From: a virus
Reading direction: 5' to 3' (one strand)
DNA: 25,298 nucleotides
Virus record (IMG/VR): IMGVR_UViG_3300047409_000787
Span: 1-25,298 of that record
Part shown: piece by piece, positions 3,167 through 22,725 of the stretch
How the letters are laid out: each line of letters begins with the position of its first letter
Numbering within the stretch: position 1 is the first letter of the stretch
Notes under the pieces: model-generated
What the model was told of the DNA's origin: nothing
Seen by the model: the letters and a program-made list of their open reading frames with translations, nothing else
Databases searched by the model: none
Translations under genes and position numbers: made by a program

Positions 3167-3672
3167 TGCGGGTCGGGCTGTCCGGCATCGAGATGCGGTA
3201 CGTGGCGTACGTCGGCGTGCTGCGCCAGCAGGCGGCGGTCGAGAAGGGCCGCCCTGAGCCGTACGGCGCGCCGCCGCGCGATCCGACCGAGAACCACGCT
3301 CTGGGCGCCGCGGCGGAGTACGTCGTCTCGCGGACGCTCGGGCGGCACTGGTACGCGGTGCTGGAGCGCGTGACCGGCGCGCCGGACGTGTTCCCGAACA
3401 TCCACGTGCGGAGCACGACCTACGCGAACGGACGGCTGATCCTGCACGACACCGCCCGCGATCCGGAAGACGGGACGTTCGTGCTCGTGACGGGCACCCC
3501 GCCGACGCTGACGATGGTCGGCTGGATTCACGGCGCCAACGGCAAGCAGACGCGGTGGTGGGGTGATCCGGCGAGGAAGGGCCGACCGGCGTTCTTCGTC
3601 CCGCAGGCTGCGCTTCGGCCGATGTCGGAGTTGCTGCCGGGTGCGGCGTTCGTGCCTGGGAATCGGTTCTGA
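3166..3672 (+). CDS. Conserved phage protein, PD-(D/E)XK nuclease-like (tentative)
   Basis: This 168-residue protein starts at an ATG sharing one base with the previous stop (TGATG), so it is coupled. A long in-frame extension upstream to 2989 is rejected because it overlaps the zinc-finger gene entirely. Visible features are GAAAEYVVSRTLG at about 47-59, then DVFPNIHVRST at about 75-85, a LILHD strand, FVLVTG, a WIHG turn and AFFVPQAALRP near the end. The order conserved Glu, Asp, then a strand ending in a basic residue is compatible with a PD-(D/E)XK nuclease fold. The expected lysine is replaced by Arg in HVRST, so catalysis is uncertain. Similar unnamed proteins are common in phages. The helicase neighbourhood fits a DNA-processing role. 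Confidence 0.75.
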   Translation: MRVGLSGIEMRYVAYVGVLRQQAAVEKGRPEPYGAPPRDPTENHALGAAAEYVVSRTLGRHWYAVLERVTGAPDVFPNIHVRSTTYANGRLILHDTARDPEDGTFVLVTGTPPTLTMVGWIHGANGKQTRWWGDPARKGRPAFFVPQAALRPMSELLPGAAFVPGNRF

Positions 3673-3851
3673 TGGACGAGAAGACGGCGGAGTTCGCGGT
3701 CAAGGGCGCGGCGTGCCCGGTGTGTGGTGTTGCGAGCGGCGTGAAGTGCATCGGCCCGACGCGGCTGCTGATGGAGCAGCCGCACCACGCGCGCCTGAAG
3801 CTGGCGTCGGACATGGTGCAGGCGCGCAGGCGGCGGAGGCGGAAGTCGTGA
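3672..3851 (+). CDS. Second zinc-finger mini-protein, paralogue of the 2951 gene
   Basis: This gene encodes only 59 residues. Cys15, Cys18, Cys26 and His39 give C-x2-C-x7-C-x12-H, identical in spacing to the product of 2951-3166, and the motif again ends in HAR. The C-terminus is strongly basic (ARRRRRRKS), which favours nucleic-acid binding. It starts on TGATG with the previous stop and ends in GTGA shared with the next start, so it is fully embedded in the coupled operon. Function is unknown. Confidence 0.78.
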   Translation: MDEKTAEFAVKGAACPVCGVASGVKCIGPTRLLMEQPHHARLKLASDMVQARRRRRRKS

Positions 3852-4225
3852 CCTGCGGCGCGCGGTCCCGGCGAGGCGCCGTGTGCGCGCGCGAGCGTGG
3901 GCACATCGGCTGTCACGAGGCGTTCGTGGAGGGCGACTCGCGGCGCTGGTGGGGCGACATGAAGCTGACGAAGCCGCAGCGGCGGCACCTGCTGGCGATG
4001 CTCGACAACCCGGACGGGCGGACGCCGTGGCGGGCTGAGTGGAAGTCGTTCGAGCGGCTGGAGGCGCTGGGCCTATGCCGGATCGAGCGCGTCCGTCACG
4101 AGTTCCATTTCGCTGCCCGAGGCGGCGGCTTCCACACGTATCGGTACGTGGCGACGCTGACGAATGACGGGCGCGACCTGGCGACCAGCCTACGGAAAGA
4201 CGCTGCCGCCTATCCTCCAGCGTAA
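3848..4225 (+). CDS. Zinc-binding plus winged-helix-like protein
   Basis: This is a 125-residue protein beginning at a GTG that overlaps the preceding stop (GTGA). The N-terminal part holds Cys3, Cys13, His19, Cys22 and His23 in the pattern CGARSRRGAVC-x4-GHIGCH, which looks like a phage zinc site. From about residue 38 (MKLTKPQRRHLLAML) the sequence resembles a winged helix: helices, a FERLEALGLCRIERV recognition-like segment, then strand and wing residues (GGFHTYRYVATLT). An internal ATG at 3959 could start the winged-helix part alone. No stop separates the parts, so the longer form is preferred. It is probably DNA-binding and possibly regulatory. It is the third zinc-type gene in under 1.3 kb. 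Confidence 0.7.
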   Translation: MTCGARSRRGAVCARERGHIGCHEAFVEGDSRRWWGDMKLTKPQRRHLLAMLDNPDGRTPWRAEWKSFERLEALGLCRIERVRHEFHFAARGGGFHTYRYVATLTNDGRDLATSLRKDAAAYPPA

Positions 4226-4232
4226 GGGAGGT
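4211..4232 (+). promoter_or_regulatory. Promoter and ribosome binding site of the collagen-like gene
   Basis: TATCCT (4211-4216) fits the TANNNT -10 pattern. A strong Shine-Dalgarno GGGAGGT (4226-4232) sits 5 nt before the ATG at 4238. The -10 lies inside the end of the upstream gene, so the collagen-like gene could be expressed separately from the helicase operon. Confidence 0.45.
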
Positions 4233-4237
4233 AGTAA

Positions 4238-5134
4238 ATGAAGGGATACGTGAGGTTCGCCCTGGGGGTCGTGGTGGCGATGTTCGCGCTGGCGGTGCCG
4301 TCGGCGGCGCTCGCCAACCCGGTGCCGGGGAATCCGCCACAGTCGCCGTGTGCGCATGGCAACCCGACGGACCTGTGCAGCCGGGTGGTGATCGTGGTCG
4401 AGCCGCCGGGCAAGAACTGTCCGAACGGCGGGATCAAGGTGGTCGTGGTCAACGGGATGCTGGACTCCGACCCGATGCGCAAGAAGCACGATCCGGTCGA
4501 TGAGACGTTCTTCGTGTGCAACGGCCTGAACGGGCAGCCTGGCCCGGCTGGTCCTCCCGGGCAGACGCCGGTGATCACGGTCGAGCCGCCGGGTGCGAAC
4601 TGTCCGGCTGGCGGCGTGAAGATTTTCCTGGCTGGAACGCCGCCCACTCCGGATCAGACGTTCTTTGTCTGCAACGGCGTGGCTGGCCCGGCTGGTCCCC
4701 CTGGCCCGGCTGGTCCCCCTGGCCCGGCTGGTCCCCCTGGCCCGGTTGGCCCCCCTGGGCCGACTGGTCCTGCTGGCCCGGCCGGTCCTCCCGGTGGCAC
4801 TCCGGCGACGGGCATCTGCGTCTCGCATCGAGTCGCGTCGTGGCACATCGTCGTGCGGAAGAACGTTCGGGTGAGCCGCGTGCGGACGACGTTCAACGGC
4901 AGGACTGCCGCGAACCGGCGCTCCCGGACGGGGAACGGCCGGTTGCAGTTCCATGTCCGGATTGACCTGCGCGGGAAGCAGTCGGGCGTGTACGTGGCCC
5001 GCATCCGCTACCGGTTCCGGCGGGTCGGTCAGGCGCACACGGTGAAGCGGACGAAGGTGCACTACTATCGCGTCGGCTGCCCGGGCCAGTTCGGCCCCGG
5101 TGGTCTGAACCAGTTCGAGGTGACCGTCCTGTAG
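4238..5134 (+). CDS. Secreted collagen-like protein
   Basis: This 298-residue protein starts with a signal peptide (about residues 1-27: basic MKGYVR, hydrophobic core, cleavage near ALA-NP). Next come two related segments at about 49-91 and 109-148, each running from VEPPG-x-NCP through GG-[IV]-K to FFVCNG, like repeats that precede collagen regions in other bacterial proteins. A short collagen region of Gly-X-Y triplets (GPPGPAG) spans about 149-187. The C-terminal domain (about 188-298) contains [13 protein letters not shown] and HYYRVGC, resembling C-termini of secreted proteins in Solirubrobacterales. It is probably exported and displayed or released as a trimer. It could be a lysogeny-expressed cargo gene altering the host surface. 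A phage fibre role is less likely given the signal peptide. It has its own promoter and strong RBS. Confidence 0.8.
4681..4796 (+). repeat. Collagen-coding 18-bp tandem repeat
   Basis: The unit CTGGCCCGGCTGGTCCCC is repeated about three times exactly and then in diverged copies (Val and Thr variants), encoding GPAGPP. Such a tract is prone to length change by slippage or recombination, so the collagen stalk length may vary between related phages. Confidence 0.8.
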
Positions 5135-5152
5135 CCCCGGCGGAGGCCAGCC

Positions 5153-10266: not shown

Positions 10267-13200
10267 ATGCCCGAGCCTCCGCGCCTGGACGGGTTCGCGC
10301 GGCAGCGCGGCGAGCGCCGGATCGACGCGGCGGTGCGCGAGTGGCTGGAGCGGTCGGTCGGCCGGTCGAGCGGCGCGGTGCCGGTGCTGCACGTGGACGA
10401 GGGCGCCATCGCGTTCGCGCTCGCGGAGGGCCGGTTCCAGTCGGCTCGCGAGGTGGTCGGTGGTGTGTTGCGAGACATCGAGCAGGCGTGGTTCGGGATC
10501 GACCCGGAGGCGCGGCCGGATCGGTGTCCGCACTACGGGGTGATGGAGCGGCCGGACGCGCCGCCGAATGGCGAGATTCGGGTGCGGCTGAAGTCGGCGG
10601 TGCGCGAGCGGACGACGTTCGTGTTGCAAGAGGCGGGGGTGGAGCCGTCGGCGGTGAACGATCCGTCGCCTGCGAGCGCGGGCGACGATGGCCTGTTCGG
10701 GCCGTTCGCGGGGCTGGAGTCGGTGGCCGAGGCGCACGTGCACGGTGGTGTGGCGTGGAGCGACGTGTCTGGGGTGGACTTTCCGACTGACCCGGGCGAC
10801 GAGTTGCTGGATGCGCTGACGCGGCGGGGCGTGGCGTGGACGATTGCCGAGGCGACGACGACGGAGCCGCAGACGAACGCCGATCCGCCGCCGACGGAGC
10901 CGGTGCCGCCGAGCGCGAGCGCGGGCCAGGCTGCGTCGGGGCTGCTCGCGGCGCTGGGTGTGTCGGGTGTCGCGGCGATGCCGCTGATGGTCGGCGCGAA
11001 GGCGGCTGCGGGCGGCGCGGACACGGTGGCGGCGGCGACTTCGATGGTGCTCCAGTCGCTCGCGGTGTCGGCGGTGAAGACGACGGACGCGGAGGCCGTG
11101 GCGGCTGCGATGGGCCAGCATCCGGAGTTGGAGCCGACCGACGTGGACGAGGTGCTGGACCGGGAGCGTGGCTACCAGGCGGAGTTCATGCGGAAGATGA
11201 GCCGCCGGGTGAAGCGCGACCTGCCGAAGGCGCTGCGGATCGAGGAAGCGGGCGAGCGGCGGCAGGCGATTCAGAAGATCGTGGATCGCGAGCGGCGCTA
11301 CATCGAGCAGCGACGGCAGGCGTTGTCGGGGCGGCTGGCGGGGTTCGCGGACATGAAGCGGCTCCAGGAATCCTCGCCGCAGGGCGCGTACTGGCAGTTG
11401 TCGAACACTGTGCGGCAGCACACGCCGGACTGCATCGCGATGAGCGGGAAGGCGTGGCCGTGGGCGGTGCTGCGGAAGTACCATCCGCCGCTGCACGCCG
11501 GGTGTCCGTGTCGGCTGCTGGGGATCGCGGAGGCGCAGGCGCGAGGGCTGCTGCGGCGTGGCGCGCTGCCCGATCCGGCCGACGCGATGCGACGCGCGGA
11601 CGCGATTGCGCGGAAGGCGCGGCAACTGGAGGAAGTCGATCCGGCGCTGGTGGACGAGTACCTGGCGCTGGTCGAGGCGCGCTCGCGCACGCACCCGTAC
11701 GATCTACGCTACGCGAAGGGGACGGTGAAGGGCGGCCAGTTCCGTCCGCGCCGTGGCGCCGCGATCCCTTCGACCCGGGCCGTAGTACGTCGCTTGGGGG
11801 CAGCGGGGAGCGTGCTACGGGACCTGGTTCCAGAGGATCGCGGTGCCCCCCGTCATCGGACGGTGCGGCTGCGCGGCCGCCGGGTGTCGGTCCCGGAGCA
11901 CCGGAACTTCCAGCGGGTGATCGACGGGCACACGTTCACGAGTCCGCCGGACAGCACGAACGTGTACCGGGACGGGAAGCTCATCTCGACGCCGGACGCA
12001 CCGGAGGCGCATCCGGACGTGCTCGACTGGCGGAAGACGGGGCGGCTGACGGTCGGCACGCCACCGAAGTTCTCCGCTGACGCGCAACTGGTGCACGACG
12101 TGCTCGCGGGCCGGTCGCCGCAGGCGGTGCTGAAGGGCACGCCAGCGGACGTGCTCGATGCGGTGGCGCGCGACGCGGGCTTCGTGCACGCGGACTCGGG
12201 CGAGGGGTGGGCGTCGTACCGGCACACGGACGGCTCGACGGTGACGGTCGAGACGAAGGACGGCCTGGTCACGGACGCGCTCGTGGAGCGGTCGTTCGTG
12301 CCGAAGGAGGAGGACTTCCACCGGGTCGAGCACGCGCCGAAGACGTGGGGCGAGTTCCTTCAGGACGCGGTGGCGGTGGTGGGTGGCATCGCCGCGCGCA
12401 CGGACGCGCGCTGGGCGTACGGGACGATGGGCTTCGATCAGTCGCTCCACGATCACACGGGCGTGCACCTATGGGACGGCAACGTGCTGGTGGCGCCGCG
12501 GGTGCAGGCGGACATCGAGGCCGCGCTGGCGCGCGCGGACAAGGGCGAGGCTGACCCGTTCCCGGCGACGACCGCGCGGGCCTACAGGACGGTCGTGCAC
12601 GAGCTTCTGCACGGCGTGAACCCGACGAACTGGCGCGACTACGTGGACACCAGGAAGCCGGGCGCGGCGCTGGAGGAGGCGCTGACGGACGAGGTGACCG
12701 GTTCGGTCGTGAACCAACTGCTGGACGATCACGGGCTGACGGACGTGGCGCAGTGGATGGCGAACAACCCGCGGCACGACGCTTCGGTCGGCTACTACGA
12801 GCACTACCGCGCGGCGCTCGACGAACTGCTGAACGAGGCGGGCATCCCGGTGGCGGATCGTCCGGCGCTGCTGTGGCACATGAAGACGCAGATGTCGCCG
12901 GACGAGCGGGCGGCGTTCCTGTCCGAGCGGACGGGGCGCGAGCCGGTGGAGTTGGCGTCGTTCTTCACGACGCAGGTGGCGCCGGACTACGTGCCGATGA
13001 TCGGCGCGGCGCCGGATTCGCCGATTCGTCCGGCGACGTGGACGATGAAGGGCGAGCAGGCCGGGCTGGGCGCCATCGCCGTGTTGCGAGACGGGACGCC
13101 GGTGCCGATGGTCGATGCGGGCGAGCGCAGCGGTGTGCCGTTCGGGGTGCTGGAGACGGGGCAGATCGTCACGGAGTCGGACTTGCAGCGGGTGATCCCG

Positions 13201-16200
13201 GCCGAGCCGGGCGGGCCGGTGCATCGGGTGCCGTTCCAGTGGTTGGGCACGGGCGGGTTCGAGACGCTGGGTGTGGGCGACGAGGTGGACTTCGGGGAGG
13301 GCACGAAGGGCGTCGTCGAGGACATCGACGAGAACGCGGACGGCACGGTGCGGGCGGTGCGGGTCGGCGGCGACTACGGGTCGGTGTGGATGACCGAGGC
13401 GCGGCTGGCGGGCGCGACGCGCGCGGGCGACCCGAAGGGCGCCGAGCCGGGGGCCGGGCAGATCAAGGTGACGCCGCACAGCCTCGGGCCTGACCTGTTC
13501 CTGCCGACGCCGGTGCCCGGCGACCTGGGCACGTGGCAGGACGCGGGCTTCGCGTCACAGGCGGAAGCTGGCCGCGAGGCGCTGCTGCTGATGCTCTCAC
13601 CCCAGATGGCGCGGCTGTCGGCGGAGGATGCGGGCAAGCGGCTGGCGCACCTCCGGGCGCTGCTGCGGCGCGGCACGGGCGCACGGCAGGACTTGGACAG
13701 GGGCGAGCTTGAATCCGAGGAAGTGCGGCTCAACGCGCTGCTGGAGGCCCGTGCGAACGCCTCGGAGACGCTGCGGGCGCGGATCGCGGCGGTGCAGCGG
13801 GCGCGGGACGGGTTCCTGAAGATCAGCACGAGCGAGTTCAACCGGCTGTACGTCGGCAAGGACGAGATGGCGACGCTGCCGGACGGGTCGCAGATGCCGT
13901 ACCGGACGCTGCTCGACGAGACGCGGAAGCCGTTCGGCGAGGTCAGCATCGTCCACGACGAGGACCTGCCGAACGCGCTGGAGGTGGACGCGGCGACGTA
14001 CCGCGCCGACCTGCTCACGCCGTCGGAGCGGGCGGACGCCATCGGTGCGGTGGAGCCGTTCCTGACGCGGATGCTGGGCGATCAGTGGGAGGGCGCGGTC
14101 GAGGACGACCCGGAGCGGGCGCTGGACATGGCGCTGTGGTCGGCGAAGGGCGGCGTGCCGATGAGTCCCGGCCTGCGGCGCGAGATTGGCCGGATGTCGG
14201 TCGCGAACAAGGGGATGACGCCGGGTGTCGGCGTCGGCGCGCCGGTGGCGTTCACGCAGGTCGGCACCGGCCGGAAGCTGAACGACGACGACCTGCGCCA
14301 GATGACGAGCGTGTATACGCCGGACCCGCTGGACGCGCCGCGGGTGCTGGGCGCGTTCAACGCGCTGGCGTCGGCGACGGCCGGGCAGAACTCGGTGATC
14401 GACCTGGAAGGGCGGCTCGTGACGCTGCGGGACGTGGCGGCTGACCTGCCTGATCCGGCGTCCGGCCGCGACGACGAGCACAAGTACCAGGCGGCGGTGT
14501 ATGCGGCGAACACGCCTGATCCGGTGACGGCGTATATGCAGGCGGTCGGCTACGAGGCGGCTGACCTGCGCGGGGCGGGCCTGGGCGCGGTGCAGTACCC
14601 GGCGGTGCCGAATCCGCTGGCGACGACGGGCGATTCGCAACTGCTGCCGCAGAGCGGGGTGCCGGATTGGCTCGGTTCGTCGGCGGTGCGGGGTGTGATG
14701 CACCTGAGCGTGCGGCAGGACGAGCGGGCCGCCATCGAGTCGCACGGGATCGACGTGATGGCGGGCCGGTCGCCGTGGGGCCGCGGGGTGTGGGCGGCGA
14801 CGCACTCGAATCCTGAGTTCGGCGATGCGGTGCCGGTGGCGCTGCGGATCGAGAAGCCGCTGCACGTGACCGGCCGCGACGACGATCACTTCCGGGAGCG
14901 GTACGTGGAGCCGGTGGTCGCCGACCTGCGCACGCGGGGTGTGTCGCCGATCAGTCCCGAGCGGGACGCGATGATCGCGGATCGGGTGCTGGCCGACGGC
15001 TACGACGGCGTGATCGTGAACGGCGGCGACGAGGCCGTGTCAATGTCGCCGGACAGCGCGCGGCCGGTGGAGCGGATCGAGTTCGATTACCGGGACGCGC
15101 CGCCGAACCTGACGTACGACCAGGAGCGCGAGTTCGCGCAGATGTTCCGTGGCCGGTTGGGCCGGTCGGTGTTCATCCAGGGGCGCCGCAACTTCATTCC
15201 GCTGGACGAGGACTTCTCGCGCGAGTCGGAGGATGGGCTGGTGCTGTTCACGAGTCCGGCCGGGACGACGCGCGTGTTGCGAGCGGAGCGGCAGCCGGAC
15301 GGTTCGTGGGGCGAAGCGCAGGTGGCGTCGGCGCCGCGGTGGCGGCGTACGCATCCGGACCTGCGGCAGCGGCGCGCGAGCACGCGCACGACTCCGCCGC
15401 CCGCGTCGCCCCGGGCTGGGCCGACTCCGCCGCCGACTCCGACTCCGCCGCCGGTGACGGACGCTCCCGTGCAGGACATCCGGCCAGGCCAGTCGGTGGT
15501 CGTGCGCGAGGCGAACGGCCAGCTTCACGGTGCACAGGTGAGTGAGGTGCCGCGGGACGGGATGGTGCGGGTGTTCGTGGCCGAGAACGACCACACGCTG
15601 CCGGAGCACTCGGGCTGGCGGACGGTGGCGGTGTCGCAGATCGCGATGGTCGATCCGTGGCAGCCGAAAGCGTGGGATGCGGTGTCGATCTACGCCACGT
15701 CGTATGAGTCGTTCGAGCGGATCGCGCGTGGCGATTCGAGCATCACGGTGCCGGACTGGTCGGGCTGGCGGCCTGGCCGCGAGAACTCGCTGGCCGAACT
15801 GGCGAACATCGCGATGGCGAACCGGTTGAGCCGCACGACGGGGCCGCTTGATCCGGAGTTCCGGGTGCTGGCGTCGGACGCCTTCCGGTACGGCGATCAC
15901 AGCCACGGCGTCCCGCAGCAGGCGATTGCCGAGGGCTACGCGGCGATCATGGGCGACTGGAACTCGGCGGTGCAGCGGTCGCCGCACTGGTCGCGGACGG
16001 TGGGCGACATCGCGCGGCGGCTGGAGTTGCCGTTGCCGCCCGAGTTCGAGACGTGGATGGACGCCGAGGACGGGAACGACAACCGGATTCCGCCGCCGGA
16101 TCAGAAGCTCGCGCCGGAGGCGCTGTTCACGCAGCTTCGCGAGCACGATGGCGGGCTGCTGCGGCCGCTGACGGCGCTGCTGCGGGAGAACGGGTTCGCG

Positions 16201-19200
16201 GAGGAAAGCTCTCGCGAGGGCTGGATTCTGACCCGGCCGGAGGGCCGGATGCAGGTGACGTTCGACCGCCGCTACCGCGACCTGCTGCCGGGCGAGACGC
16301 CGCCGTACGAAGGGCAGAGGCAGGACTGGGGCGTGGTCAACGTCCGCACGTCGTTCATCCCGGCGGCGGACGCGACGGCGGGGCCGCGGACGCTTCAGCG
16401 GTTGCAGGCCGACCTGAGCGTCTTCGATGCGCAGGCGGCGAAGAACTACTTGACCGCGCGCGGGTGGGTGAAGCCGGGCAGCTACGGCTACGCGCCGTAC
16501 TTCTCGCCGGACGGCCGCTACTCGCTGGTGTACGCGGGCGTCGATCACGTGCAGCGGTCCCACAAGTGGCAGTTGTTGGAAGTGATGACGAACACGCGCC
16601 GGGTCGAGGCGATCCGCGCGCTCGCGGGCGCGGGCCGGTGGCGTGACGCGATCCCGGTCGGCACGCCGTTCGACACGGCGCGGCAGGCGGCGGACATCGT
16701 GGGCGAGGTGGAGCACGCGAAGGACGCGCCGATCTTCACGGTGTGGCCGAAGTCGGGGCTGGGCACGCCGATGCGGTTCCGGGTCGGCCGGGACGGGCCG
16801 ATGAATGACAAGGTGGTCGAGGTCGGCATCCCGGGCGCCGGGCCGCACGACATCCTGACCGACGCCGAGGCCGCCGACGCGCAGGAGCGGGTGCGGATCG
16901 CGGAGGCGGAGGCGTGGAACAACGCGACCGATCAGCGGGTGGAGGCGATCCGCGAGGCGCTGACGGCGGCGACGGACGCGAAGCGCAACCCGCTGAAGAT
17001 CGGCCGGGGCCGGACGGCGACGATGATGGAGGCCACGAGCACTGAGGTCGAGGCGGTGCTGAAGGGTCTGCGGATGAAGCCGACGACCCGGAACGCGCGG
17101 CGCCGGACGACGCCGGAAGGCGACGAGGTGCTGTCGCGTACCTACAAGTCGGCGGAGACGGGCGCGTCGATCATCGTGGACTTCGCGAAGCGGCCGACGC
17201 CGCTCGGGCCGCGGTACATGCTGGTCGAGTCGCGCGCGTTCAAGCTGCCGGGCGGGTCGGTGGCGCTGCGGCGCGAGCGGGTGCGTGGGCGGGTGCCGCA
17301 GAATCAGGCGGAGTACGCGGGTGACCTGACGGCGCTGGCGCTGGAGTTGTCGCGCGCGAACGGCGTGCCGGAGGGCAGGCAGTCGGAAATCAGCGAGGTG
17401 ATCTTCTCGACCGGCACTCGGCGCGGCACCGGTTACGAGGGGTTCTCGGGGCTGCACCAGTTGCGGGGCTACATCCGGCTCGGCTCGGCGGTGCTTCCGG
17501 CGCTTCAGCGCGGCATCGAGCGGCGCAACAACAACGAGCACCTGTCGAACCAAGAGAAGGCCGATCTGTACGCCTCCTACAAGGTGATGGCGCACGAGTT
17601 GCTGCACTCGGTGAACCAGGACCGCGACCCGATCAACACGTACGGCGGGGTCGGCCTGGAGGAAGCCGTCGTCGAGGAACTGGCGCACGTCACGGCGCGC
17701 GACTGGCTCGGCGAGCACGGCTACCACGATGTGCTGGAGTGGGCGCAGGAGAACCCGTCGAACGAGCGCGTGCTGGGGTCGTACCGCGGGTTCCGGCAGG
17801 GGATGCGGACGATCATGGACGACGCGAAGGTGCCGCAGGGCGAGCGGCAGGCGTTGCTGATGCGGCTCCGCTACGGCTACCCGGGCGAGTCGCGGCTGGA
17901 GCGGCTGAACCAACTGATGCGGGACGCCAACGGCGGGACGATCCCGAGCGGCCGCGAGTCCTCGACGCGGCTGTACGGCTCCGCGAGCGACGGGAACCGG
18001 ACGCCGCCGAACTTCCAGGCGGTGCTGAAGCTCGATCCGCACCCGACGCCGCTGGAGCAGGGTCAGGTCGTGACCGACCGGGCGGGCAACGTGGTGCGGC
18101 TGATCGGCACGTCCGGGGTCGGTCAGTCGGTGGAGTGGTACGGCGAGTCGCCGGACGGCACGCAGCGGCTCTACAAGGCGACGGAACTGGTGCCCATCGG
18201 TGCTGGGCTGGCGCCGGAGCGGTTCCCGGAGGGCGCCGATCCGTACCGCAGCCGCGATCAGTTGCGGATCGGTTCGGTGGTCACGGTGGGCGACCGGCTG
18301 GGCCGGATCACGGCGACGTACCGGCAGGACTCGGCGGGCCGCAACCGGGCGGGCTACACGATCCAATGGCTGGACGACGGGTCGTTCGATGGGCTGGCGC
18401 CAGACTCCGAGTTCGGGATCGTGCAGCACGAGGCGATCCGGCCGGTGGAGGGCACGCAGGTGGCGGTGCTCCACAACGGCGAGGTGAAGCTGGGCACGGT
18501 CGAGCGCGACACGTACGGCACGCTGGGCATCGCGATCCCGGGCGAGTACGTGCGCGGCGTGACGCCGGAGCGGGCGCTGCCGCCGCTGACCGCGAAGGGT
18601 GGGTCGGTGTTGTGGCGCGGCCGCGAGTGGAAGGCGGGCGAGCGCGTCCGGGTGGGAGACGTGGAGGGGATCGTCTGGGACACCGCGGCGGGCGATGGCA
18701 TCACGATCCTGACGCAGACCGGCGAGGGGACGCGCGGCGAGCCGACGCATCGCGAGCTTCGGGTGGGCGCGGGCGACGCGGGGGTGCCGGTCGCGCCGAC
18801 GCCGCGGCTGGTGGCGGCGGAGTCGCTGGCGTTCCGGCCGCGGAGCCTGAGCGGCGCGGGCGATGTCGAGGTGATGGCGGGCCGCCGGTACGTGACGCCT
18901 TCGGGGGCGCCGGTCGTGGTGGCGGGGTTCGCGCCGACGGCGACGGCGGGCGAGTGGGCGGTGATCGACCACACGGGGCATCCGTGGCGGCCGAGCGACC
19001 TGTCCGAGTGGGTGCCGACGGTCGGCAACATCGCCACGCTGTCGGATGGCGAGGAGGCGTACGTCGGCAGCATCGTGCGCAGCACGAGGGCCATCGGCGC
19101 CCGTCCGCAGCCGGGCGAGGCGCCGGGCACGCGGTCGCCGATGAAGGTGCTCGGCATTCGGCCGGACGGGCGGATTCGAGCGGTGATCCTGGGCGCGGAC

Positions 19201-22200
19201 GGGTCGCCGTCGGGCACGGAGGTTGTGCGGTGGCCGGAGTTCCTGATGCTGGCGCCCGGGCACGCACAGCCGGATCGGCCAGAGCCGCAGCCGCCGCTTG
19301 ACCCGAACGAGATTCCGGGTGGCTGGATTCGGCCGGGCGGCGGCGGGATGGTGCTGGCGTACGGCGACGAGCGGAACCCGAGGCTGTCGCGCGATGACCT
19401 GCGCACGCAGGCGCTCATGGAGGTCGCCGAGGAGCCGGACGGCGGGCTGGTGAAGCTGCGGCAGGGCGCGGAGCACCACATGCTCGATCCGGCCACGCTG
19501 CGTGTTGCGAGCCGGATCGCGTCCGGGCACATCGTCACGGCGGGCGACATCGTGACGACGAGTGGCGAGGACTCGCACGACGGGATCGTCGAGTCGGTGG
19601 ACTGGCGCGGCGCGTTCCCGGTGATCAAGCTGGTCGGCGACGACACCGCGTATGACCCGCGGCACCTGCGCGTGACGACGCTGCCGAATGGGCTGAAGGC
19701 GGGCGACCCGGTGCGCTACGAGCGCGGCACCGTCGCGGGCCTGCGCACCACGACATCGGGCGAGGGGTGGATCATCGGCATGGCCGAGAACGCTCCGCAG
19801 CCGACGGTGCTGGTGCGCGACATGGCATCGAACGCCGAGGTGCTTGTCGAGCCGTCGGCGGTGACGCGGTGGAAGCCGGAGCCGCTGACGCGGGTCGAGC
19901 CGGTGGTTGGCCTGTCGAAGGCGATGGGCGAGTTGGGCCGGGTGGACTGGGCCGACGCCGCGGAGACGCGGCGGCTCGGGGAGAAGATCGGCACGTCGTT
20001 CGCAGCACAGATGGCGGAGGGCGCGGCCGCGGCGCTGGTGCGGCAGGCGGATGACGAGCGGGGCATCCTGACGGGCGAGAAGCCGCGGGCGTTCCTGGCG
20101 GCGGCCATCGAGGCGGTCTACACGAACGAGGCGGCCGCGCGGACGCTCCAGACCGATCATCCGATGCTGTACGAATGGGCGGTTGACTCGCTCGCGCAGA
20201 ACGGCGTGGTGCTGCCGCCGTGGGTCGAGCCGCCGACGTACGACGTGAAGTCGGATGCGTGGCTTCGGGCGTCGTTCTCGGGCGTGTTCGGCCGCTCGAA
20301 CCTGCGGGCGATGGTGACGAGCACGACGGTGCGGGGCGATCACATGGCGGTCGGCGGGTCGGTGATCGACGCGGGTGGCAGCCGGGTGGGCGAGTTCAAG
20401 CGGGCGATCTATCCGGACGCGAACAAGGTGCATCACTCCTACCTCCAGATTCAGGATGCGCACCAGGGGACGGGCTTCGCGGGTGGGTTCATCCGGAAGA
20501 CGGAGAAGGCGTACGTGGACGGCGGGCTGACGCACATCACGGTGAGCGCGACGTTGAAGAACGGCGCGTACACGTGGGCGACGATGGGCTTCCAGGTGCA
20601 GAGCAATCAGAAGGGCGTGATGCGCGACCTGGTGAACTCCGCGGCGCGGTCGAGCCGGATTACGGCGGACGAGAAGACGCACCTGTTGGAGCGGATCGAC
20701 TCGGGCGACATCGCGGTGATCGAGCAGTTGGCGCACGCGGACGGGCGCCCGGCGGGAACGGAGCGGCCGAACTTCAACCTGGGCCAGAAGGTGCTGGTGG
20801 GTCAGTCGTGGTCGGGCGTGAAGTTCCTGCCGGGCCATCCGAACTACGTGCCGCGGCCGGATCGTCCGCCGCGCTCGCCGCGAGCGGAGCCGCCGCCGCC
20901 GCCCGAGCCGCCGGAGCCGCCGCCTGCGCCGGTGCCGGTGGACGGGGTGGGCGCCGTGCAGCCGGATGGCGTGATGCCGGATTGGCCGGTGCTGCCGAAG
21001 GCCGCCTTCACGGACATCCAGCCGGGCGACGTGCTCCGGTTCGGCGACCGCAGCGGCGGCGCCGCCTACTACCTGAAGATCGACCGTACGGAGAGCGGGG
21101 TCGTGCACGGGACGGTGGTCGCGTCGAATATGCGGGGACGGCCGGTCGGCCAGTCGCGTGAGTTGCTGGCGACCCACTATTCCTTTGATCAGTGGACGTA
21201 CCACGGCCCCGCGGCGCCGCCCGAGCCGCCGCCTGCACCGGAGCCGCCACCGTCGGGGCCGCTGTCGATGGAGAACATCACGCCGGGGTTCCAGTTCACG
21301 ATGACGACGCCGGACGGCGACGTGGCGTGGACGGGCCGGGTGACGGCCACGCATCCGGCTGGGCCGTCGTCGGGCCGGTCGATCACGGTCGAGCAGAAGC
21401 AGTTCGACGCGAACGCTCCGGGCGACAACATGCGGTGGGGGTCGGGGTTCCTGATGTACGAAGACGAGTGGCAGCAGTTGGTCGGCCAGCGCCGGATTCG
21501 CGCGCGGCCGCCGGAGGCCGATCCGACGTTGGGCGCGATGCAGCAGCAGGGCGTGATCCCGGAGTGGCCGGTGTTGCCGAAGCCCGCCTTCGACGATCTA
21601 CAGGTGGGCGACGTGATCAGCCGGACGGACGGTCAGGAGAAGCACTTCGTGAAGATCACGGACATCGACGGGCGCGGGCAGGTGCGCGGCACCATCGTCG
21701 CGTCGAACGTGGTCAACACGTTCCCGGTGGGCGAGCAGCGGACGGTCGGTCCGCTCGGCTGGGGAGGCATGGGCGATGCGTGGCAGTTCCACGGGCACGT
21801 CGCGGCCGACGCGCCAGCCGCTCCCGGAACCGCGCCGGGCTGGGTGCCGTCGGCCGCGAACGTGACGACGGGGTTCCTGGTGCGGATGGAGGACCCGTAC
21901 GGCCATCCGGATCGGACGTTCCAGGTGGCGGGCCGGTTCGGGGAGCGGATGCTGCACCTGAAGCGGTGGAACGCTGAGACGCGCCAGTGGGGCGGCGACG
22001 AGCCGTGGAGCTACGACGAGTGGGACCGCGCGGCGCAGATCGGACAACTGCACGCGGCGGACGCACCGGCCGGGTCGGCCGAGGCGCCGACGGTCGAGGC
22101 ATCGGGGCCGCTCGGGACGCCGCAGGCGTTCGGTGTGCTTCCGTCCTGGCCGGTGCGGGAGAAGCCTGCGTACTCGGCGTTGCGGGTCGGTGACGTGATC

Positions 22201-22725
22201 CGCCGGTCGGAGGACGGCGAGACGTACTGGATGCGGGTGACGGAAGCCAACGCGACGGGTCGCACGCGGACGGAGGTGATCGCGTCGAACGTGGATCACC
22301 GGCAGATTGGCGACGTACGCTCGATCAACTCGGGCATCTGGGGCCTGAACTGGTGGACGTACCACGGGAACGCCGAGTCGGACGAGCCGCCGTCGGCGCC
22401 GCTCGTGCCGTCCGCGCCCGAGGCGCCTGCTGGCGTGGGTGCGGTGCAGCGGGTCGGCGTGATTCCGGACTGGCCGGAGCAGGAGAAGCCTGCGTTCCGG
22501 GACTTGCAGCCGGGTGACGTGATCAGTCGTCGCGACCCGAGCACGGCGACGAACTACTTCGTGCGGATCGTGGAGAACCGAGGCAGTGCTGTCGTCGGCG
22601 AGGTGGTCGCGACGGATGTTCCGGCGACCTGGGGCATCGGCGAGGAGCGGGTCCTGACGCCGACCGGCTGGAACGCGGATGTGTGGCGGTACAACGGCTC
22701 GGCCCTGGCGTCGCAGAACGAGTGA
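10267..22725 (+). CDS. Giant MuF-type polyvalent protein, 4,152 residues
   Basis: One uninterrupted frame of 4,152 codons begins two bases after the portal stop. Domains in order: DUF3626-like region (about 20-195); Ala-rich hydrophobic linker (216-280); MuF head-morphogenesis domain with HTPDC, GK and HAGCPCRLLG (293-420); a KGGQFRPR junction (about 490); metalloprotease module 1 with HELLH at 778-782 and Glu803/804; beta-barrel segments (915-1065); helical region (1066-1465); ADP-ribosyltransferase-like domain (1468-1610); Pro-rich linker (about 1708-1735); unknown modules; metalloprotease module 2 with HELLH at 2443-2447 and Glu2465/2466; repeated SH3/KOW-like barrels (about 2580-3200); GNAT-like acetyltransferase (3335-3448); Pro-rich linker; C-terminal A-B-A-B-A-A repeats (3560-4144). 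MuF proteins are minor head proteins bound to the portal and can be ejected with DNA. An injected multi-effector acting on the host is therefore inferred. Ordinary MuF proteins have a few hundred residues. Confidence 0.9.
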   Translation: MPEPPRLDGFARQRGERRIDAAVREWLERSVGRSSGAVPVLHVDEGAIAFALAEGRFQSAREVVGGVLRDIEQAWFGIDPEARPDRCPHYGVMERPDAPPNGEIRVRLKSAVRERTTFVLQEAGVEPSAVNDPSPASAGDDGLFGPFAGLESVAEAHVHGGVAWSDVSGVDFPTDPGDELLDALTRRGVAWTIAEATTTEPQTNADPPPTEPVPPSASAGQAASGLLAALGVSGVAAMPLMVGAKAAAGGADTVAAATSMVLQSLAVSAVKTTDAEAVAAAMGQHPELEPTDVDEVLDRERGYQAEFMRKMSRRVKRDLPKALRIEEAGERRQAIQKIVDRERRYIEQRRQALSGRLAGFADMKRLQESSPQGAYWQLSNTVRQHTPDCIAMSGKAWPWAVLRKYHPPLHAGCPCRLLGIAEAQARGLLRRGALPDPADAMRRADAIARKARQLEEVDPALVDEYLALVEARSRTHPYDLRYAKGTVKGGQFRPRRGAAIPSTRAVVRRLGAAGSVLRDLVPEDRGAPRHRTVRLRGRRVSVPEHRNFQRVIDGHTFTSPPDSTNVYRDGKLISTPDAPEAHPDVLDWRKTGRLTVGTPPKFSADAQLVHDVLAGRSPQAVLKGTPADVLDAVARDAGFVHADSGEGWASYRHTDGSTVTVETKDGLVTDALVERSFVPKEEDFHRVEHAPKTWGEFLQDAVAVVGGIAARTDARWAYGTMGFDQSLHDHTGVHLWDGNVLVAPRVQADIEAALARADKGEADPFPATTARAYRTVVHELLHGVNPTNWRDYVDTRKPGAALEEALTDEVTGSVVNQLLDDHGLTDVAQWMANNPRHDASVGYYEHYRAALDELLNEAGIPVADRPALLWHMKTQMSPDERAAFLSERTGREPVELASFFTTQVAPDYVPMIGAAPDSPIRPATWTMKGEQAGLGAIAVLRDGTPVPMVDAGERSGVPFGVLETGQIVTESDLQRVIPAEPGGPVHRVPFQWLGTGGFETLGVGDEVDFGEGTKGVVEDIDENADGTVRAVRVGGDYGSVWMTEARLAGATRAGDPKGAEPGAGQIKVTPHSLGPDLFLPTPVPGDLGTWQDAGFASQAEAGREALLLMLSPQMARLSAEDAGKRLAHLRALLRRGTGARQDLDRGELESEEVRLNALLEARANASETLRARIAAVQRARDGFLKISTSEFNRLYVGKDEMATLPDGSQMPYRTLLDETRKPFGEVSIVHDEDLPNALEVDAATYRADLLTPSERADAIGAVEPFLTRMLGDQWEGAVEDDPERALDMALWSAKGGVPMSPGLRREIGRMSVANKGMTPGVGVGAPVAFTQVGTGRKLNDDDLRQMTSVYTPDPLDAPRVLGAFNALASATAGQNSVIDLEGRLVTLRDVAADLPDPASGRDDEHKYQAAVYAANTPDPVTAYMQAVGYEAADLRGAGLGAVQYPAVPNPLATTGDSQLLPQSGVPDWLGSSAVRGVMHLSVRQDERAAIESHGIDVMAGRSPWGRGVWAATHSNPEFGDAVPVALRIEKPLHVTGRDDDHFRERYVEPVVADLRTRGVSPISPERDAMIADRVLADGYDGVIVNGGDEAVSMSPDSARPVERIEFDYRDAPPNLTYDQEREFAQMFRGRLGRSVFIQGRRNFIPLDEDFSRESEDGLVLFTSPAGTTRVLRAERQPDGSWGEAQVASAPRWRRTHPDLRQRRASTRTTPPPASPRAGPTPPPTPTPPPVTDAPVQDIRPGQSVVVREANGQLHGAQVSEVPRDGMVRVFVAENDHTLPEHSGWRTVAVSQIAMVDPWQPKAWDAVSIYATSYESFERIARGDSSITVPDWSGWRPGRENSLAELANIAMANRLSRTTGPLDPEFRVLASDAFRYGDHSHGVPQQAIAEGYAAIMGDWNSAVQRSPHWSRTVGDIARRLELPLPPEFETWMDAEDGNDNRIPPPDQKLAPEALFTQLREHDGGLLRPLTALLRENGFAEESSREGWILTRPEGRMQVTFDRRYRDLLPGETPPYEGQRQDWGVVNVRTSFIPAADATAGPRTLQRLQADLSVFDAQAAKNYLTARGWVKPGSYGYAPYFSPDGRYSLVYAGVDHVQRSHKWQLLEVMTNTRRVEAIRALAGAGRWRDAIPVGTPFDTARQAADIVGEVEHAKDAPIFTVWPKSGLGTPMRFRVGRDGPMNDKVVEVGIPGAGPHDILTDAEAADAQERVRIAEAEAWNNATDQRVEAIREALTAATDAKRNPLKIGRGRTATMMEATSTEVEAVLKGLRMKPTTRNARRRTTPEGDEVLSRTYKSAETGASIIVDFAKRPTPLGPRYMLVESRAFKLPGGSVALRRERVRGRVPQNQAEYAGDLTALALELSRANGVPEGRQSEISEVIFSTGTRRGTGYEGFSGLHQLRGYIRLGSAVLPALQRGIERRNNNEHLSNQEKADLYASYKVMAHELLHSVNQDRDPINTYGGVGLEEAVVEELAHVTARDWLGEHGYHDVLEWAQENPSNERVLGSYRGFRQGMRTIMDDAKVPQGERQALLMRLRYGYPGESRLERLNQLMRDANGGTIPSGRESSTRLYGSASDGNRTPPNFQAVLKLDPHPTPLEQGQVVTDRAGNVVRLIGTSGVGQSVEWYGESPDGTQRLYKATELVPIGAGLAPERFPEGADPYRSRDQLRIGSVVTVGDRLGRITATYRQDSAGRNRAGYTIQWLDDGSFDGLAPDSEFGIVQHEAIRPVEGTQVAVLHNGEVKLGTVERDTYGTLGIAIPGEYVRGVTPERALPPLTAKGGSVLWRGREWKAGERVRVGDVEGIVWDTAAGDGITILTQTGEGTRGEPTHRELRVGAGDAGVPVAPTPRLVAAESLAFRPRSLSGAGDVEVMAGRRYVTPSGAPVVVAGFAPTATAGEWAVIDHTGHPWRPSDLSEWVPTVGNIATLSDGEEAYVGSIVRSTRAIGARPQPGEAPGTRSPMKVLGIRPDGRIRAVILGADGSPSGTEVVRWPEFLMLAPGHAQPDRPEPQPPLDPNEIPGGWIRPGGGGMVLAYGDERNPRLSRDDLRTQALMEVAEEPDGGLVKLRQGAEHHMLDPATLRVASRIASGHIVTAGDIVTTSGEDSHDGIVESVDWRGAFPVIKLVGDDTAYDPRHLRVTTLPNGLKAGDPVRYERGTVAGLRTTTSGEGWIIGMAENAPQPTVLVRDMASNAEVLVEPSAVTRWKPEPLTRVEPVVGLSKAMGELGRVDWADAAETRRLGEKIGTSFAAQMAEGAAAALVRQADDERGILTGEKPRAFLAAAIEAVYTNEAAARTLQTDHPMLYEWAVDSLAQNGVVLPPWVEPPTYDVKSDAWLRASFSGVFGRSNLRAMVTSTTVRGDHMAVGGSVIDAGGSRVGEFKRAIYPDANKVHHSYLQIQDAHQGTGFAGGFIRKTEKAYVDGGLTHITVSATLKNGAYTWATMGFQVQSNQKGVMRDLVNSAARSSRITADEKTHLLERIDSGDIAVIEQLAHADGRPAGTERPNFNLGQKVLVGQSWSGVKFLPGHPNYVPRPDRPPRSPRAEPPPPPEPPEPPPAPVPVDGVGAVQPDGVMPDWPVLPKAAFTDIQPGDVLRFGDRSGGAAYYLKIDRTESGVVHGTVVASNMRGRPVGQSRELLATHYSFDQWTYHGPAAPPEPPPAPEPPPSGPLSMENITPGFQFTMTTPDGDVAWTGRVTATHPAGPSSGRSITVEQKQFDANAPGDNMRWGSGFLMYEDEWQQLVGQRRIRARPPEADPTLGAMQQQGVIPEWPVLPKPAFDDLQVGDVISRTDGQEKHFVKITDIDGRGQVRGTIVASNVVNTFPVGEQRTVGPLGWGGMGDAWQFHGHVAADAPAAPGTAPGWVPSAANVTTGFLVRMEDPYGHPDRTFQVAGRFGERMLHLKRWNAETRQWGGDEPWSYDEWDRAAQIGQLHAADAPAGSAEAPTVEASGPLGTPQAFGVLPSWPVREKPAYSALRVGDVIRRSEDGETYWMRVTEANATGRTRTEVIASNVDHRQIGDVRSINSGIWGLNWWTYHGNAESDEPPSAPLVPSAPEAPAGVGAVQRVGVIPDWPEQEKPAFRDLQPGDVISRRDPSTATNYFVRIVENRGSAVVGEVVATDVPATWGIGEERVLTPTGWNADVWRYNGSALASQNE
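10324..10851 (+). other. DUF3626-like N-terminal domain of the giant protein
   Basis: Residues about 20-195 contain, in order, VPVLHVDEGAIAF, a CPHYGVM segment, ERTTFVLQEAG and VAEAHVHGGVAWSDV. This order (a [PH]YG motif, a [CT]TF strand, then EAxVHG) matches my recollection of DUF3626, a poorly characterised actinobacterial family. The His-containing EAHVHG may form a metal or catalytic site. Homology is tentative. Confidence 0.45.
11143..11526 (+). other. MuF (SPP1 gp7-like) domain of the giant protein
   Basis: Residues 293-420. A long charged helical stretch (LDRERGYQAEFMRKMSRR onward) leads to HTPDCIAMSGKAWPW and HPPLHAGCPCRLLG, the Cys/His cluster at the end of the Mu gpF/SPP1 gp7 family. 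Encoded immediately after the portal gene, it should anchor the giant protein to the portal inside the head. Confidence 0.8.
12343..12966 (+). other. Zinc metalloprotease module 1 of the giant protein
   Basis: VVHELLHGVN supplies HExxH (residues 778-782). LEEALTDE, about 25 residues on, supplies the third ligand in gluzincin style. A trailing helical part (LLDDHGLTDVAQWMANNP, YYEHYRAALDELL) matches the second module at 17314-17938, so the two arose by duplication. Confidence 0.7.
14668..15096 (+). other. ADP-ribosyltransferase-like domain of the giant protein
   Basis: Residues 1468-1610. VMHLSVRQDERAAIESHGI opens the domain with His1479. Next come GRGVWAAT, AVPVALRIEKPLHV, ADGYDGVIVNGG near 1576-1586 and a closing strand before ERIEF. 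These match the order of motifs in ADP-ribosyltransferase-type domains of phage polyvalent proteins. Which residues are catalytic is not settled by eye. Confidence 0.5.
17314..17938 (+). other. Zinc metalloprotease module 2 of the giant protein
   Basis: MAHELLHSVN gives HExxH at residues 2443-2447, and LEEAVVEELAHV gives Glu2465/2466. The following LGEHGYHDVLEWAQENP and FRQGMRTIMDDAKVPQGERQ parallel module 1 (DDHGLTDVAQWMANNP, YRAALDELLNEAGIPVADRP). Both copies keep all metal ligands, so both may be active. Confidence 0.7.
20269..20610 (+). other. GNAT-like acetyltransferase domain of the giant protein
   Basis: Residues 3335-3448. A strand (SYLQIQDAH) is followed by QGTGFAGGF at 3400-3408, which matches the acetyl-CoA pyrophosphate-binding Q-x-x-G-x-[GA] loop of GNAT enzymes. 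Then come a helix, a HITVSATLKNG strand and AYTWATMGFQV, the usual last strand. The target is unknown. Confidence 0.55.
20944..22698 (+). repeat. C-terminal A-B-A-B-A-A protein repeats of the giant gene
   Basis: Four A units of 85-88 residues lie at 20944-21207, 21532-21795, 22114-22368 and 22438-22698. Each runs from a GV-x-P-x-WP opening through K-[AP]-A-[FY] and a GDV strand to a final W-x-[YF]-[HN]-G. Two B units (about 21271-21500 and 21853-22060) share GF followed by a strand and YDEW or YEDEW. A and B look like SH3-type beta barrels. Pro-rich linkers precede the first A and the first B. Confidence 0.8.

Follow-up and report, generated by a model that had tools for sequence, protein, structure and literature searches.

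The viral contig IMGVR_UViG_3300047409_000787 of IMG/VR was analysed over positions 1 to 25,298, and this whole stretch of 25,298 nucleotides is referred to below as the window. Immediately downstream of a portal protein gene it encodes a single protein of 4,152 amino acids, and we consider it likely that this protein belongs to the MuF kind of minor capsid protein, associates with the portal and has grown into a probably self-processing polyvalent effector of a contractile-tailed phage. The open reading frame (ORF) is a genuine single gene under purifying selection. Its product carries an MuF-like domain, two paralogous metallopeptidase modules in which the active-site motif is kept, a GNAT acetyltransferase-like module and two segments resembling ADP-ribosyltransferases (ARTs), and its relatives, also encoded beside portal genes, differ in their cargo. 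The positions of the features are collected in Table 1.

An intact, selected gene beside the portal gene

The single frame of 4,152 residues described at 10,267–22,725 by the initial annotation is indeed present, and its G+C content by codon position (0.72/0.52/0.92) is coding-like. A sibling contig, IMGVR_UViG_3300045120_000498 (127,514 bp; locus L001), shares with the window a 17.2-kb stretch containing the gene at 98.2% DNA identity, and in it the same frame is open over 4149 aa with one three-residue gap; the stops or frameshifts that might have split the frame were looked for by means of this copy, and none was found. The two copies are separated by 145 synonymous and 86 non-synonymous changes, and the ratio of non-synonymous to synonymous substitution rates (dN/dS) is 0.205 overall, 0.025 in the MuF part and 0.356 in the GNAT part, the latter having the highest dS (0.164) among the segments compared. 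Because the sibling frame is intact and dN/dS is 0.205, the frame is a real, selected single gene. An antisense open frame of 2104 codons also lies within it (window 15040–21354, minus strand), and is taken to be an artefact of high G+C content.

A Pfam scan of the whole protein returned no family, and scans of slices gave sub-threshold matches only. No match was obtained by tblastn of residues 1–1078 against the phage collection at E ≤ 1e-3, or of residues 1–3000 against plasmids at E ≤ 1. Scans of viral contigs with single queries (whole protein, portal or peptidase) found the sibling contig only, and further relatives needed alignments.

The portal ORF ends at 10265 and the 4152-aa ORF starts at 10267, with one base between them. 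Like those of polyvalent proteins, the gene is encoded among phage packaging genes. The matches of the portal in INPHARED are confined to two Methanoculleus virus records at 25% identity, one of the proteins matched being encoded in a packaging region (E 5e-12), and no near relative of the phage was found in that collection. The sibling contig encodes TerL, a tail sheath, a baseplate wedge, a tape measure and a head maturation protease, together with RecT-like and Ku-like proteins and methyltransferases (41 larger ORFs scanned, 25 of the 63 matched families listed), and on this gene content it is a contractile-tailed phage. Among the 16 family records, 11 were searched further: seven of the 11 have the sheath family and one, which is not the sibling, has a tyrosine integrase (PF00589); these records may be incomplete. 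The TerL family PF03354 gave no match in the sibling, TerL being recognised instead through PHROG, in 13 of 16 records. When genome contigs were scanned with the MuF alignment, 11 stretches fitted the pattern but none was confirmed, and therefore no host is assigned.

The MuF-like domain and the enzyme-like modules

Residues 284–430 appear to form a divergent MuF-like domain, the case for which rests on relatives. The Cys/His cluster that had been noticed near the start of the frame lies at residues 385–415. TIGR01641 matches the protein over 88 of 109 positions (E 1.2e-4) with 22.4 bits, below its curated cut-off of 39.65, and PF04233 (E 0.028) with 15.6 bits, below its cut-off of 29.6. An MuF match had been expected at residues 293–420; it is found, over 284–430 and with the backing of the family, but below the curated cut-offs, and the domain is therefore filed only as divergent and MuF-like. 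Among 18 family members, TIGR01641 matches nine and PF04233 four at E ≤ 0.1, and H102, T103, C106, H127, C130 and C132 (alignment numbering) are invariant in all 18 rows. A profile search of the PDB gave one match (E 0.95), and tblastn of the MuF slice against the phage collection gave none at E ≤ 10. The 50 weak rows from BFVD include three proteins named 'Phage head morphogenesis domain' and one 'Minor capsid protein', none of them significant.

A six-row alignment of the MuF core matched 100 IMG/VR stretches, from which 23 loci, the sibling being one, were confirmed; some are near-duplicates (L017/L043, L048/L049, L050/L051, L055/L056 and L059–L062). In all 23 a homologue of the window portal lies upstream of the MuF ORF. 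The domain begins at residue 284 in the window protein and at 37–109 in the other 22 loci, an N-terminal extension special to the window and its sibling. Nineteen MuF ORFs are complete (the sibling's taken from L001, and L047 completed through L063), the other four running off their contigs. Their products measure 318 (four near-identical loci), 324, 435, 742, 996, 1046, 1054, 1268, 1871, 2359, 2373, 2389, 2659, 2839, 4149 (sibling) and 4683 aa, and seven of the 19, the sibling included, exceed 2,000 aa. The window protein is therefore, as first remarked, far larger than the short members of 318–435 aa, but its size is not unique: it is second in the family set to the protein of L063.

Two complete HExxH metalloprotease modules had been reported, and both are borne out. 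The protein contains exactly two HExxH motifs, at residues 778 and 2443, and the modules around them (600–900 and 2240–2556) are paralogues, 27% identical over 178 positions with a pairwise E of 2e-18. A profile of the two modules found relatives in other contigs, and peptidase modules follow the MuF domain in seven of the 19 complete ORFs (the sibling, L042, L043, L045, L046, L054 and L063). L042 aligns with window residues 258–1264 at 39% identity, and L043 and L063 with about 284–890 at 31–32%. HExxH and a second motif with Glu, the signature of zincin-like metallopeptidases of the gluzincin type, are kept in all nine distinct modules of an alignment, its members chosen by homology and both window copies included; nine other HExxH sites in relatives (near-duplicates counted) have no second motif and may belong to other families. 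In L063 (96–14144, 4683 aa), peptidase modules of the same family lie near both ends.

An AlphaFold model of residues 258–930 (19 rows) has a mean predicted local distance difference test score (pLDDT) of 75 and a predicted template modelling score of 0.48, with pLDDT of 75–96 over the peptidase core. When it was compared by VIA with the PDB (544 chains), the best 18 rows were M1 aminopeptidase, LTA4H or DPP III, with Z from 8.4 to 6.9, although only three rows reach 8 and a Z under 8 may reflect a common arrangement. The best row (Z 8.4) has 177 aligned residues and a root-mean-square deviation of 4.0, and the rows for the N-terminal helices of the model are mixed. A nine-row peptidase profile matched seven PDB entries, all of the thermolysin family (E 0.31–0.63), and a profile from a two-row alignment matched none.

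The GNAT-like domain that had been predicted is confirmed at residues 3344–3520, and the assignment, made by homology, is well supported. The module has homologues in gp5 of Microbacterium phage Jera (E 7e-14) and gp24 of Alteromonas phage R7M, where it stands C-terminally and N-terminally, respectively, both proteins being portal-adjacent. A three-row profile gave six PDB matches (E 0.005–0.94), five of them named acetyltransferases and the sixth CG8481, and a scan of IMG/VR confirmed relatives at 22 loci, sibling included. The homologous segment of L053 scores 24.6 bits, above the Pfam cut-off of 20.7. A QGTGFA loop, read by eye, is presumably the GNAT motif.

One ART-like domain had been proposed; ART-like sequence is found, but as two candidates, the stronger of which (residues 36–195) precedes the MuF-like domain. 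In pairwise BLASTP this segment matches residues 322–502 of Mycobacterium phage Tierra gp9 (E 6e-8, 39.3 bits) and D29 gp2 (E 5e-8, 37.7 bits), scores above the maxima from 60 shuffles each (21.6 and 17.7 bits); in collection-wide tblastn the E-values are only 0.09 (Tierra gp9) and 0.3 (D29 gp2). The best two of three PDB matches to a three-row profile of this domain are 7dn8 (E 3.5e-5) and 7dn9 (E 1.9e-4), both given in a review as the ADP-ribosyltransferase SopF (PMC10333799). The weaker candidate, residues 1465–1620, aligns at 30% identity over 64 aa (E 5e-5) with a phage frame of 2295 residues, in its ART-PolyVal domain (match to PF18760 at E 4e-30). PF18760 itself gave no match to this slice; the segment alone, as a profile against the PDB, gave one unrelated match (E 0.17), and a scan with a two-row ART alignment found only the sibling. 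The 2295-residue frame (L067:1050-7934) is separate from the MuF ORFs, and HExxH motifs can be seen in it by eye.

Differing cargo and competing readings

Ten relatives whose portals are 34–48% identical to that of the window were scanned with Pfam for cargo in their MuF ORFs, that of L047 being cut by the locus end. Five of the ten proteins carry domains over the cut-off: Zeta toxin in two (best E 1e-22), NUDIX in two (best E 5e-13), Acetyltransf_1 in three and ADPrib_exo_Tox in one. A constant anchor with differing loads is what would be expected of a delivery protein, and not of a structural one. In the L063 protein, segments resembling an ART and a zinc ribbon can be made out by eye alone, Pfam giving at most a sub-threshold RES match.

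From these observations we infer the following course of events. The MuF-like domain would attach one or a few copies of the protein to the portal within the head. The remainder would be cargo: the ART-like domain ahead of the MuF-like domain and, after it, the metallopeptidase modules, the second ART-like segment, the GNAT-like module and the repeats. The metallopeptidases would most likely cut the chain into functional fragments, either within the head or after entry. Carried into the cell together with the DNA, the fragments would act on host proteins by ADP-ribosylation and acetylation, to the benefit of the phage. In published work (Iyer et al. 2017, PMC5512222; Jamet et al. 2017, PMC5576092), fusions of MuF to effectors are proposed to be delivered from the head, and zincin domains to process polyvalent proteins; the architecture described here agrees with this and adds an extreme case that extends over a family. 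At least two unrelated domains in one chain, another mark of such proteins, are found here by homology (metallopeptidase, GNAT, ART-like). What stands of the 'packaged multi-enzyme effector' first proposed is thus an MuF-like anchor at the portal and several independent enzyme-like modules, the packaging itself being part of the course suggested above.

A number of points weigh against this reading, in addition to the VIA scores under 8. Large parts of the 4152-aa chain have no assigned module. Half of the scanned relatives (L043, L044, L045, L047 and L056) have nothing over the Pfam cut-off. The protein's own matches to PF04233 and TIGR01641 are below the curated cut-offs; PF04233 had no match in the window's own record and, in a search of 13 records, one sub-threshold match, and hhalign of the MuF profile against Mu gp30, a Methanoculleus virus protein and Jera gp5 gave weak alignments in which the Cys/His regions were paired. 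ART-PolyVal (PF18760) was found in none of the 13 records, nor was MPTase-PolyVal (PF18818) at E ≤ 1. At E ≤ 0.001 Foldseek retrieved nothing from the PDB or BFVD; M1-type zinc peptidases are what the model of peptidase copy 1 resembles most, but not at a significant Foldseek score. The AlphaFold model of the second ART-like segment is unusable (pLDDT 39). Finally, by eye the usual active-site positions can be made out only in part in the two ART-like segments, and therefore one or both may be inactive.

The last point would suit a protein with a chiefly structural role: a giant plug of the portal, or an internal protein of the head, whose repeats and enzyme-like domains serve its architecture and whose metallopeptidases do no more than mature the prohead. 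MuF proteins do belong to the head (PMC5512222), and four C-terminal repeats and Pro-rich linkers fit such a role. Yet the cargo varies among relatives whose portals share 34–62% identity with that of the window, unlike a structural part; the sibling encodes a separate head maturation protease; and members of 318, 324 and 435 aa do without cargo, all of which makes this explanation unlikely. Ranking next, and likewise improbable, is a polymorphic MuF toxin of a temperate phage, aimed at competing phages or other bacteria, the lysogen being immune, and not a factor for establishment. MuF polymorphic toxins have been published for temperate phages (PMC5576092), two relatives carry Zeta-toxin domains, and ART domains occur; but no tyrosine integrase was found in the sibling record and only one of 11 family records has one (records that may be incomplete, serine integrases not having been searched), and the window protein has many modules in one chain where a single C-terminal toxin would be expected. 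A misassembly, or a frame open by chance, is very improbable: long spurious frames do arise in DNA of 71% G+C, and the antisense frame overlaps the gene, but the frame recurs in a second contig under selection, and frames of three other contigs share 31–39% identity with it over 600–1000 residues.

A short header motif also recurs in the family. The pattern HPR[GD]..G.[WF] occurs 17 times in seven of 25 MuF ORFs (L048, L049, L051–L053, L055 and L056; near-duplicates included), where shuffling predicts at most 0.005 each, and in these ORFs HPR[GD]xxG[KREQ][WF] precedes recognised modules. In L053 and L055 it also precedes the tRNA nucleotidyltransferase part and the phosphohydrolase part of the gene that follows, and in L044 the endolysin part of a protein; a minor head protein of L015 contains it too, as does a sibling protein of 402 aa that has no PHROG match. 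Motif-bearing ORFs outside MuF include L053:12692-15883, L044:5607-6695 and, on the minus strand, L006:11008-12216. The window protein has it only as a variant, at residues 478–500. It is possible that the motif is a processing or loading signal; a text search of the literature with four header-motif strings returned nothing related. Tentatively, and as a generalisation that we would call conceivable rather than probable, these phages might form one tailed family, at least partly contractile, in which a constant MuF core on the portal, often with a metallopeptidase, is followed by enzyme modules that are freely exchanged, the chain reaching as much as 4,683 aa, with the header (HPRGRGG[KR]W or a YPKGTxxGGQF variant) marking module borders as such a signal and also tagging separate proteins (tRNA nucleotidyltransferase/phosphohydrolase, endolysin).

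Remaining features and relation to known systems

The Pro-rich linkers of the initial annotation are present at about residues 1701–1750, 3521–3575 and 3641–3680; of its putative 'many small barrels', what is confirmed is a set of four C-terminal repeats of about 95 residues. Residues 1155–1346 (window 13729–14304) resemble a protein of Acidovorax phage ACF1 annotated as DNA primase (28% over 198 positions; E 0.04 in the phage collection). Upstream, a collagen-like gene (4238–5134) has DUF7151 over the cut-off, collagen just below it and 18-bp tandem DNA repeats; the stretch that contains it (3861–5144) is missing from the sibling, which has about 24 bp in place of about 1.28 kb. The element ACACACnGnGTGTGCTA recurs ahead of start codons, with a GC-rich hairpin and GGAAAGG after it, at about 23561 and 24265 in the window and at four sibling places (L001 153, 23289 and 23996; L004 12770); it is probably a phage promoter or operator with a structured leader.

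Table 1. Features of the window, with residue numbers referring to the 4,152-aa protein
Feature	Position	Strand	Basis
Portal protein gene, 647 aa	8322..10265	+	PHROG 10963 portal E 5e-26; directly upstream
MuF-like polyvalent protein gene (proposed), 4152 aa	10267..22725	+	ORF list, codon-position GC, sibling copy, dN/dS 0.205
N-terminal ART-like domain, residues 36-195 (stronger candidate)	10372..10851	+	Tierra gp9 and D29 gp2 matches, SopF profile match
MuF-like domain, residues 284-430, H-T-x-x-C ... H-x-x-C-x-C cluster	11116..11556	+	TIGR01641, PF04233, 18-row alignment
Conserved post-MuF motif YAKGTVKGGQFRPRRG, residues 478-500, in the position of HPRGRGG[KR]W of other members	11698..11766	+	
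Region resembling the small box at 1624-1672, residues 530-585	11854..12021	+	weak; L063 and L042 boxes sit at equivalent place
Metallopeptidase module 1, residues 600-900; HELLH 778, LEEALTDE 802	12064..12966	+	homology, AlphaFold, VIA
Domain common to L042, residues 930-1046	13054..13404	+	E 3e-18
Region common to L042, residues 1066-1264	13462..14058	+	E 2.6e-7
Second ART-like segment, residues 1465-1620 (weaker)	14659..15126	+	BLAST match to ART-PolyVal domain
Small box, residues 1624-1672, also in L063 (340-386) and L042 (367-404)	15136..15282	+	E 0.006, 0.012
Pro-rich linker 1	15367..15471	+	
Metallopeptidase module 2, residues 2240-2556; HELLH 2443, LEEAVVEE 2464; paralogue of module 1	16984..17934	+	
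GNAT acetyltransferase-like module, residues 3344-3520	20296..20826	+	PDB profile matches, Jera gp5, L053
Pro-rich linker 2	20842..20946	+	
Four ~95-residue repeats with other segments between, about residues 3558-3649, 3749-3847, 3952-4034, 4054-4148	20938..22710	+	

Judged by titles and abstracts, no paper on this giant MuF-like family was found, although one may exist. The concept is already published (Iyer et al. 2017; Jamet et al. 2017), and the novelty lies in the size of the protein, its architecture and the family to which it belongs. With the polyvalent proteins, as described by Iyer et al. 2017 (PMC5512222), the window protein shares unrelated enzyme domains (zincin, ART, GNAT) in one chain beside packaging genes, and packaging and self-processing are proposed there too; it differs in lacking matches to the Pfam families ART-PolyVal and MPTase-PolyVal, in having an ART-like domain before the MuF-like one, and in carrying two paralogous peptidases of one divergent family in 4,152 aa. 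With the MuF superfamily (Mu gp30, SPP1 gp7) and the MuF toxin fusions described by Jamet et al. 2017 (PMC5576092) it shares a gene directly downstream of the portal gene, the Cys/His cluster and a sub-threshold TIGR01641 match, but it falls below curated cut-offs, has an N-terminal enzyme-like extension, and bears many internal modules where those proteins are short or have one C-terminal toxin.

Tierra gp9, annotated as a capsid maturation protease and ADP-ribosyltransferase, is portal-adjacent, has the homologous ART-like domain and, by eye, an MuF-like Cys/His cluster, but it has 727 aa, its ART follows the MuF-like part, and no metallopeptidase or GNAT is seen in it by eye. Jera gp5 (667 aa) and R7M gp24 (637 aa) are portal-adjacent head proteins with a homologous GNAT module at one end of the chain. 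The virion RNA polymerase of N4, which according to PMC5512222 is very large, packaged and equipped with a zincin domain, is comparable in its working, by description only. Related phages in which homologous portals and MuF cores go with differing cargo, from almost none to over 4,000 residues, turn the polyvalent idea into a comparable series, in which one can ask whether zincins cut the chains, what can be delivered by an MuF anchor, and which host processes are attacked by the exchanged enzymes.
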